In this document: positions 37,382 through 42,354 of the stretch, piece after piece | Layout: each line of letters begins with the position of its first letter | How positions within the stretch are numbered: position 1 is the stretch's first letter | Origin: Planctomycetota bacterium | GTDB lineage: Bacteria; Planctomycetota; B15-G4 | Direction of reading: 5' to 3' | Assembly: GCA_029259725.1 (NCBI GenBank) | Contig: JAJDER010000079.1 | Span: 1 to 42,354 of the forward strand | Length of the DNA: 42,354 bases | The notes under the pieces: model-generated | What the model saw: only the letters and a program-made list of their open reading frames with translations | Told to the model about the DNA's origin: nothing | Database searches by the model: none | Translations under genes and position numbers: made by a program

Positions 37382-39931
<2,550 letters not shown>

Positions 39932-39971
39932 CGGGGGACCTCCGGGCGGAAGGGGAGTCACCCGTCGGAAG

Positions 39972-39988
39972 TGCAAGCCGCGTGCCAA
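39972..39988 (-). promoter_or_regulatory. Sigma-54-type (-24/-12) promoter of clpB
   Basis: On the minus strand the sequence TTGGCACGCGGCTTGCA matches the sigma-54 consensus YTGGCACG-N4-TTGCW at every position. The -24 GG and -12 GC are exactly 10 bases apart. Transcription would start near 39961, giving a leader of about 30 bases with the GGAGG site of clpB. Activator sites were not identified. clpB is more often under heat-shock control elsewhere. Confidence 0.7.
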
Positions 39989-40131
39989 TCGGCGGTCTCG
40001 CGCGGAGGCGGCGGGACGCGGCCCCAGGGCCGGTTCTCCGCAGCTGCCCACAACCTCTCAACAGGTGGGACTGTCGATGTGGCCAGGCGGGCTGCCTAAA
40101 TGGCGGTACGTGCTTCCCGCCATGCGGCCGG

Positions 40132-40137: not shown

Positions 40138-40200
40138 CCGCGCCGATCGGCCCTGGCACCCGCCTCGCGGCCTCGTCCTCCTCGCCTTGCGGATCCCCTC

Positions 40201-40830
40201 ATGCTGGTCGAAGCCACCCTGACCGACTTCGCCGCGGCGTCGGCGTCGAGAGAGCCCACTCCCGGCGGCGGGTCGGTGGCCGCCTACGTCGGCGCGCTGG
40301 GGGCGGCGCTGGGGGCCATGGCCGCCCGCTTCACCGAGGGCCGCAAGGGCTTCGAGCACCACGCCGATGCGCTCGCCAGCGAGATCAACCGTCTCGACGC
40401 CCTCCGCGAGGAACTGCTCGAGCTCGTGGATCTCGACGCGGCCGCCTACGCAGGCGTGGGTGCCGCCTACGGCCTCCCGAAGTCCACCGCTGACGAGCAG
40501 GCCACGCGCCGTGAAGCGATCCAGGCCGCCCTGCGCGCCTCGATGCAGGCGCCGCTGCGCACCTGCCGTGTGGCCGTCGAGGGGCTCACCGTGCTCGACG
40601 CGCTGGCCGGCCACTGCAACCCGAACCTGTTCAGCGACGTCGTCGTCGGCGCGCACGACCTCGGCGCGTCGTACCGCAGTGCCTGGGTCAACGTGCTGAT
40701 CAACCTCGCGTCCCTCGAGGACACCGAGCTGGTCGAGACCGTCCGAGCCGAGGGAGCGACTCTCGTCGGGCTCGTCGACGCCATCGAAGCGCGCATCGCC
40801 GAGGCGTTCCTGACGTCGCTGCAGCGCTGA
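40201..40830 (+). CDS. Formiminotransferase-cyclodeaminase-like protein (FchA/FTCD_C)
   Basis: A 209-residue all-helical protein of the cyclodeaminase family, which releases ammonia from 5-formimino-tetrahydrofolate to give 5,10-methenyl-THF. The opening [20 protein letters not shown] with AMAARFT is the family signature. [16 protein letters not shown], the [13 protein letters not shown] block and [10 protein letters not shown] also fit. No formiminotransferase or histidine-degradation gene is nearby, so the natural substrate here is uncertain. The ATG at 40201 directly precedes the family start. The next gene follows after 17 bases. Confidence 0.82.
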
Positions 40831-40847: not shown

Positions 40848-42221
40848 ATGGCCGACGAGACGTCCAGAGACGGCCGGCCGACGGCCCAGCGCGGGCCGGG
40901 TGGCGTCGCCGTGCATCATCCGGCACTGCTGCCGCTGCTGCGCGAGACCACCACGCAGGCAGACCTCGACGTGCTGGAAGCGCAGCTGCGTGGCTGGGGC
41001 GTCTTCGACTTCCCGCAGCTCGAGACCGGCCTCTACTCAGCCGTGGTCGGCGACGGCGCAGACGAGACCGGCTACCGCTCCACGTGGCTGCGCGACACGG
41101 TGCACGTGGCCAACGTGCGCTGGGACCTGGGCGAGACCGGGTCGGTCGCCGCGACCTGCGCGGGGTTGCTGCGTTGGCTGCAGGTCCAGGCCCCGCGCTT
41201 CGAGGCCTGTCTCTCCGGCGAGGCCGAACTCGCCGACCCGATGCAACGCCCCCACGTACGCTTCGACGGGGAGCGCATGGTGGAGCTCGACGCGTGGTGG
41301 CCCCACGCGCAGAACGACGCCCTCGGGATCACGCTGTGGTTGCTGTGTCGAGCGGTGCTCAGTCGATTGGCCGAGCCGTCGCCCGAGCTGGCCGACGTGC
41401 TGGCGCGGTTCCCGCTCTTCTTCGAGGCCGTCGACTACTGCCACGACGCCGAGAGCGGTCACTGGGAGGAGACGCCGAAGCGGAACGCGTCGAGCGTCGG
41501 AGCCGTCGTCGCCGGACTGCGTTCGCTGCGTGGACTCCTGCGGGCGGACGTCGCCCGCCCCCTGTTGGAACGTCTCGCAGCACGTGGTGTCGACGACGCC
41601 CGGCTCGCCGGCTTGCTCGGCGCGGGGAGGCGGCGCCTGGCGGAGAGCCTGCCGCTGGAGTCCACCGGCAACGCGGATCCGCGGCTCGACCGTGCGGCCG
41701 ATGCGGCCTGCCTGTTCCTCGTGCACCCGCTCTGGGTCGCGGAGCCGAGTCAGGCCGGACGCATCGTGGGCCTCGTGCGCGAGCACCTCATGGGCCGCCA
41801 CGGGATCCGGCGCTACGTCGGTGACAGCTACTGGAGCGCGGACTACAAGCGCCGCTTCACGGTCGAGGAGCGCAGCGGGTCGTTCGAAGGCGACCTGACC
41901 GAGCGCGACTCGGCCCTGGTCCCGGGCAGCGAAGCGCAGTGGTGCCTGTTCGACCCGGTGCTCTCCTGCATCCACGGCCGGCGCGCCCAGGCCACGGGCT
42001 CGGCGGCGGACCTGCTCGCGCAGCGGCTCCACTTCCACCGCGCCCTGGGGCAGATCACCGGCCCCGACGGCGCGTTCCCCGAGGGCCTCTGCCCCGAGGC
42101 GTACGTCATGCCCGACAGTGCCACGCCCGGGCACTGGGAACCCAATGACGACACGCCGCTGATGTGGACCCAGGCCATGCTGGTCGCGGCCTTCCAGGCG
42201 ATGCGCGCGACCGCGCCTTGA
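40848..42221 (+). CDS. GH15-like / phosphorylase-kinase-alpha-like protein
   Basis: A 457-residue protein without signal peptide that looks like the (alpha/alpha)6 barrel of glycoside hydrolase family 15 and the phosphorylase-kinase alpha subunit. TGYRSTWLRDTVHVANVRWD recalls the family's early WxRD substrate block. GHWEETPKRNASSVGAVVAG carries a candidate acidic residue. The end EPNDDTPLMWTQAMLVAAF matches the typical P-L-x-W-x-x-A closing helix. A glucoamylase or trehalase-like activity is possible, but catalytic glutamates are not certain. A GGGAGG site precedes the ATG at 40848. It follows the cyclodeaminase-like gene closely and ends just before the 11-bp repeat array. Confidence 0.65.
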   Translation: MADETSRDGRPTAQRGPGGVAVHHPALLPLLRETTTQADLDVLEAQLRGWGVFDFPQLETGLYSAVVGDGADETGYRSTWLRDTVHVANVRWDLGETGSVAATCAGLLRWLQVQAPRFEACLSGEAELADPMQRPHVRFDGERMVELDAWWPHAQNDALGITLWLLCRAVLSRLAEPSPELADVLARFPLFFEAVDYCHDAESGHWEETPKRNASSVGAVVAGLRSLRGLLRADVARPLLERLAARGVDDARLAGLLGAGRRRLAESLPLESTGNADPRLDRAADAACLFLVHPLWVAEPSQAGRIVGLVREHLMGRHGIRRYVGDSYWSADYKRRFTVEERSGSFEGDLTERDSALVPGSEAQWCLFDPVLSCIHGRRAQATGSAADLLAQRLHFHRALGQITGPDGAFPEGLCPEAYVMPDSATPGHWEPNDDTPLMWTQAMLVAAFQAMRATAP

Positions 42222-42222
42222 C

Positions 42223-42354
42223 GGCGCGACGACGGCGCGACGACGGTGCGACGACGGTGCGACGACGGTGCGACGACGGTGCGACGACGGTGCGACGACG
42301 GTGCGACGACGGTGCGACGACGGTGCGACGACGGTGCGACGACGGTGCGACGAC
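42223..42354. repeat. Tandem 11-bp repeat array, 12 units
   Basis: Beginning one base after the stop codon at 42221, the sequence consists of exactly twelve 11-bp units up to the window end. The first two are GGCGCGACGAC and the next ten are GGTGCGACGAC, without a single error. The array probably continues beyond the window. The unit length is not a multiple of three, so all three frames are used in turn. Confidence 0.95.

Follow-up and report, generated by a model that had tools for sequence, protein, structure and literature searches.

The window, that is, the whole stretch of 42,354 nucleotides analyzed here, belongs to a genome assembly of 4.79 Mb with a completeness of 84% and a contamination of 0.15%. 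The 16S gene of this genome, located on contig C18, contains the target of the PLA46 probe, which we take to be a mark of Planctomycetota. Toward the end of the window, the gene encoding the disaggregase ClpB is read on the minus strand and is separated from a divergent gene by an intergenic region in which the putative regulatory elements lie (Table 1). The best NCBIfam model for this ClpB was TIGR03346, with a score of 1173 bits, 59 bits short of the cut-off of 1232.

Table 1. Features of the clpB locus and of the candidate activator gene (contig C98).
Feature	Position	Strand	Remarks
Sigma-54 -24/-12 promoter TTGGCACGCGGCTTGCA	39972..39988	-	13/13 match; unique in the window; kept in 6/6 genera of the family
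clpB, disaggregase of 849 aa	37382..39931	-	Pfam Clp_N, AAA_lid_9, AAA_2, ClpB_D2-small
Ribosome-binding site GGAGGT	39938..39943	-	6 nt before the clpB ATG; read from the sequence
Predicted clpB transcription start	39961	-	12 positions past the C of the -12 GC; deduced from the position of the site
Predicted upstream activator site CGCCATTTAGGCA	40093..40105	-	8/10 to TGCCA-N3-TGGCA; ~138 bp upstream of 39961
Degenerate second copy of the activator site GGCCGCATGGCGG	40117..40129	-	Weak alone; placed like the first of the two palindromes seen in relatives
Divergent FTCD_C (cyclodeaminase-like) gene	40201..40830	+	Pfam PF04961; shares the intergenic region with clpB
Candidate activator, 453 aa	C98 15435-14074		PF00072, PF00158, AAA_lid_14, HTH_8; GAFTGA present

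The first-pass annotation of this DNA had claimed a sigma-54 promoter in front of clpB with all of its fixed positions in agreement, a GG/GC spacing of exactly 10 and a good distance to the ribosome-binding site and the start codon, and all of these points were confirmed. Read on the minus strand from 39988 to 39972, TTGGCACGCGGCTTGCA matched the consensus YTGGCACG-N4-TTGCW at 13 of 13 positions with GG-N10-GC spacing, and no other exact match was present in the window. The exact sequence TGGCACGNNNNTTGC occurred only once, while 0.03 occurrences were expected from shuffles of the window. The ATG of clpB (39931, minus strand) is located 41 nt downstream of the site, and a start at the predicted +1 (39961) would produce a leader of 30 nt. 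No sigma-70-like site was found between positions 39900 and 40250.

A weaker look-alike facing the opposite gene had also been pointed out. This sequence (CTGGCACC-CGCC-TCGC, 40153-40169) is indeed present, with a 10/13 match and 32 nt before the ATG of the divergent gene, but no functional meaning could be maintained for it. Among five relatives, a 9/13 site at a similar place was observed in G004, three others had matches of 8/13 or lower at unrelated positions, and the divergent start of the fifth was not reliably located. The window contained 10 imperfect matches (up to two mismatches) versus 16 expected, and therefore the look-alike was attributed to chance. It was rejected as a promoter, and the FTCD_C gene, having no conserved sigma-54 site in the relatives, is not considered part of the putative regulon described below.

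The conservation of the clpB site in relatives, proposed earlier as a check, was then evident at several levels. Each of the six genera in the family of the window had a -24/-12 site ahead of clpB (6/6). When the intergenic regions of these six genera (~51% identity) were aligned, the TGGCA, G and TTGC columns were invariant, together with several columns of a palindrome located upstream, and the conserved islands were the -24/-12 site and this palindrome. Other genomes of the order carried weaker GG-N10-GC sites at comparable positions. A site of at least 10/13 was detected in 65 of the 115 planctomycete clpB regions versus 4 of 115 on the antisense strand (32/60 versus 4/60 when counted by family), and in 2 of 72 clpB genes from outside the phylum. 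A search for loci related to clpB had yielded distant, scattered relatives, which served as a control across phyla. Roughly one in two of the planctomycete clpB genes sampled showed no clear site. Both the promoter and the palindrome were found in the two named Phycisphaerales clpB loci, L121 and L160. Judging by this conservation, the site at 39972-39988 is real and functional. Outside the phylum, a 13/13 sigma-54 match without palindrome was seen 53 nt upstream of a Rhizobium clpB (L155).

The genome contains the rpoN gene (PF04552, E = 7e-59), as the sigma-54 assignment called for. About eight NtrC-type activators are also encoded in it (eight places above 100 bits to PF00158, the highest with 246 bits) which, along with the predicted upstream activator site, agrees with the earlier proposal that clpB depends on an enhancer-binding ATPase. 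Nine exact matches to the sigma-54 consensus were counted in the whole genome, versus ~2.9 predicted by base composition; eight of them sit just upstream of gene starts and the remaining one (L018) inside a coding frame. The other exact sites located before genes (L017, L019-L023, and L025) had no palindrome, and several of the genes behind them appeared by eye to encode secreted or membrane-bound proteins, so these sites are likely served by other activators.

The relatives carried a pair of palindromes between 100 and 200 bp upstream of clpB, with GCCATTATGGC, GCCATGATGGC, and GCCTTAATGGC as examples of the first copy, and the general motif across the phylum was TGCCA-N3-TGGCA. A palindrome of at least 9/10 was present before clpB in 36 of 115 planctomycete regions, versus 1.0 expected from shuffles. 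The clpB palindromes of the window are imperfect (8/10 and weaker), whereas those of the relatives are strong. This comparison suggests that TGCCA-N3-TGGCA is likely an enhancer upstream of clpB. An initial guess at the palindrome, GCCATWATGGC, was found at 30 places in the genome (15 on each strand), most of them not associated with a sigma-54 site, and was replaced by TGCCA-N3-TGGCA following the phylum comparison. When one mismatch was allowed, TGCCA-N3-TGGCA was not enriched genome-wide (51 places versus 169 for the reversed pattern); the motif is informative only when paired with a sigma-54 site.

The combination of both elements was searched in 159 planctomycete genomes without regard to the genes, requiring the palindrome followed at 41-101 bp by TGGYAY-N5-TTGC. 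This search produced 33 matches in 28 of the 159 genomes, versus a single match for the reversed pattern. The target gene could be read in 29 of the 30 loci retrieved, since in the thirtieth (L349) the contig ends ahead of it, and all 29 targets were chaperone or protease genes: groEL (12), dnaK (9), groES (3), clpB (2), hsp20 (2), and ftsH (1). Their identity was established by Pfam on representatives of each kind and by conserved start sequences for the rest.

In the genome of the window, groEL was preceded by a palindrome pair (-94 and -138) and the sigma-54 site TTGGTCCGGGCTTTGCT, and dnaK by the exact palindrome TGCCAGGATGGCA and TTGGCACGGGTTTTGTT. Two palindromes and a 12/13 sigma-54 site were also observed before a gene for a stand-alone receiver of 145 aa (contig C11, L289:1275-1500), which could be a phosphate sink or a feedback element of the same kinase that is described below. 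As a separate observation, the dnaK promoters of six genomes of the family (L384-L389, ~1666-1770) kept TTGGCAC but deviated from the sigma-54 consensus at -12 in a conserved way, reading TTTG(T/A) and not TTGC.

The targets matched the set of genes that Rhodopirellula baltica induces by heat, which includes ClpB, GroEL, DnaJ, GrpE, Hsp20, DnaK, Cpn10, and FtsH (PMC2754498). In that organism rpoN is not itself heat-induced (PMC2754498), an observation tempered by the fact that the activity of sigma-54 is set by the activator and not by the level of the sigma factor. The first-pass annotation had proposed that sigma-54 would tie clpB to a specific signal in place of heat shock. This part was not supported: throughout the phylum, the same promoter and enhancer stand before groEL, dnaK, groES, hsp20, and ftsH, and heat-shock control therefore appears to run through sigma-54 directly. 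The contrast between sigma-54 and heat-shock control should thus be dropped and, as far as these shared elements indicate, the two are most likely the same thing here.

Control by HrcA/CIRCE, which in many bacteria likewise coordinates groEL and dnaK, was rejected. No HrcA match was obtained in the 14 genomes of the class of the window present in the collection, while the same search was positive in 7 of 14 control genomes, and no CIRCE-like element was found near these chaperone genes. As the genomes are incomplete, the absence throughout the class carries more weight than the absence in the genome of the window. HrcA/CIRCE follows a repressor logic, unlike the positive sigma-54 control proposed here.

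A candidate for the activator was located on contig C98, where a histidine kinase gene, the gene for an NtrC-type receiver/AAA+/Fis protein and dnaK follow each other in this order. The reading frame of the kinase (PF00512/PF02518, HisKA/HATPase_c) extends into the 5' end of the activator gene, and the domain search recognized no sensor, extracytoplasmic or ligand-sensing domain in it. The activator could not be assigned to a named equivalog, the nearest NCBIfam models being AtoC, NtrC, and ZraR, all well below their cut-offs. The palindrome TGCCAGGATGGCA is located directly past its stop codon. The same order of activator and dnaK, with palindromes and a -24/-12-like site, was observed in 6/6 genera of the family, and the adjacency of both genes was also found in nine genomes of other families (G018, G029, G032, G035, G069, G111, G125, G135, and G163).

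A tree of the activator ATPase domains from nine genomes contained one clade with a member in every genome. The helix IGERTLYRKIKEY, or a close variant of it, was present at the C-terminal end of exactly one activator in each of the nine genomes compared, and a DNA pattern for this helix was detected in 67 of 159 genomes, nearly all of them with a single hit, versus 0 for the reversed control. The presence of the helix tracked that of the clpB palindrome (27/50 versus 8/61; Fisher p = 4e-6, uncorrected for ancestry). Some genomes bearing the palindrome had no helix at up to two mismatches. An apparent exception, G069, turned out to carry the close variant ISERTLYRKIKVY in the activator adjoining dnaK. 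In the sister families of the order (f2 and f3), clpB had -24/-12 sites with different upstream motifs, and no helix match was found in the members searched, which points to a drift of the activator or of its site in these families. Upstream of clpB in one sister family (L178, L179, and L181), a repeated TGTCAAAGTGACG or TGCCAAAGTGACG was seen in place of TGCCA-N3-TGGCA. Additionally, the receiver domain of the activator looked degenerate in G134 (L330) and G148 (L318), and phosphorylation may therefore not be a universal switch.

The sequence evidence covers the promoter, the putative enhancer, their conservation, the shared targets, the synteny of activator and dnaK, the presence of rpoN and the lack of an HrcA match. 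It points, with good probability, to a heat-shock regulon of Planctomycetota that would be positively controlled by sigma-54 in genomes lacking HrcA, with the two-component activator linked to dnaK acting on TGCCA-N3-TGGCA. According to this proposal, RNA polymerase with sigma-54 would transcribe clpB from the -24/-12 site at 39972-39988, and an NtrC-type activator positioned on the palindrome, ~100-140 bp upstream, would loop to the polymerase and open the closed complex. The likeliest activator is the receiver/AAA+/Fis-HTH protein of C98 (453 aa), which the kinase would switch on upon protein damage, sensed for example through free DnaK. In this genome, such a common control would extend to clpB, dnaK, and groEL; in other members of the phylum it would take in groES, hsp20, and ftsH. 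We infer the binding of the activator to the palindrome, the sensing of protein damage by the kinase and the induction by heat. The location of the activator beside dnaK hints, speculatively, at a feedback by DnaK. In a broader sense, we lean toward the idea that the classical sigma-32/HrcA logic has been replaced by a strict positive enhancer control in which DnaK, placed beside its own regulator, would be a natural feedback point.

Several other explanations were weighed against this regulon. The sigma-54 promoters may be real and answer to a trigger other than heat or protein damage, such as starvation, metals or the envelope, the chaperones being included in a broader response. Activators of the NtrC type commonly act in responses to nitrogen, metals or the envelope, the models nearest to the C98 activator are AtoC, NtrC, and ZraR, none of them over the cut-off, and a stand-alone receiver gene is under the same control in this genome. 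This explanation seems fairly unlikely, however, because classical heat-shock genes account for all of the 29 readable targets and match the heat-induced set of R. baltica (PMC2754498), and the kinase has no recognized extracytoplasmic or ligand-sensing domain. It is unlikely as well that the regulon and the palindrome are real and an activator other than the one linked to dnaK binds, the dnaK-linked pair controlling something else. The genome offers about eight activators, the palindrome occurs without a helix match in some genomes, and in other families of the order no helix was detected in the members searched, yet clpB keeps its -24/-12 sites. Against this, the activator directly adjoins the palindrome-bearing dnaK promoter in 6/6 genomes of the family and in other families, each genome has one conserved activator whose invariant recognition helix parallels the invariant palindrome, both co-occur (at the p value given above, with ancestry uncorrected), and the G069 exception resolved into a close variant of the helix beside dnaK.

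The two remaining explanations concern the clpB promoter itself. Tandem promoters exist in many bacteria and ECF sigma factors are numerous in planctomycetes, so a housekeeping or ECF promoter might drive most of the clpB transcription and leave a minor role for the sigma-54 site. The lack of a sigma-70-like site in the region searched and the conservation of the -24/-12 site and the palindrome as islands in six genera with ~51% identity make this quite improbable. That the match at 39972-39988 is a functionless coincidence is very unlikely, almost to the point of being negligible, in the light of the comparative data: some exact matches are certainly expected by chance, given that about three of the nine in the genome are predicted and L018 lies in a coding frame, but the position of the clpB site, its conservation in 6/6 genera, its enrichment in the phylum and the linked enhancer argue against it.

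The proposed sigma-54 heat-shock regulon has precedents in part. In E. coli, sigma-54 likewise transcribes chaperone-related genes, with an input to heat shock at the ibpB and rpoH promoters; that input is accessory and sigma-32 is the main factor, whereas here the chaperone genes appear to be under one sigma-54 control. In a PVC relative, a chaperone operon is likewise linked to sigma-54 and an AtoC-type activator, but HrcA/CIRCE is present in that organism and its rpoN falls on heat shock. The HsfA-HsfB pair of Myxococcus xanthus, which acts on lonD, is a two-component system of an NtrC-type sigma-54 activator and a kinase named for heat shock. It has been mentioned in relation to development, motility, predation, and natural products (PMC9548883, PMC7910581).

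The closest work is a survey from 2025 that deals with the same phylum, target genes and promoter type and is also computational (PMC12316311). It reported that sigma-54 promoters are enriched before GroEL, GroES, IbpA, GrpE, DnaJ, DnaK, and the Clp/Lon-type ATPases of COG0542/0466/1066 in Planctomycetota and Bacteroidota, the planctomycete enrichment being in Planctomycetia and Phycisphaerae (PMC12316311). A promoter of this type before clpB is therefore not surprising for Planctomycetota in general. COG0542 is the Clp ATPase group that usually contains ClpB. In the passages of the survey consulted, no enhancer sequence or activator is assigned to the chaperone genes, and its authors indicated that they lacked the activator specificity for some of the organisms (PMC12316311). 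Relative to that text, the shared palindrome, the kinase/activator pair beside dnaK and the absence of HrcA in the class of the window are added here. No earlier report of an enhancer or activator for planctomycete chaperone genes was found in the literature searched, mainly open-access papers. The control of heat shock in planctomycetes had been left open, and the putative enhancer, a candidate activator with its kinase and a target list make the question testable. If the proposal is true, a general stress response would rest on activator-dependent transcription with almost no basal leak.

Finally, a nearly perfect tandem repeat of 11 bp (GACGGTGCGAC, 12.3 copies) was observed at positions 42220-42354, reaching the end of the contig, and it was probably this repeat that broke the assembly.
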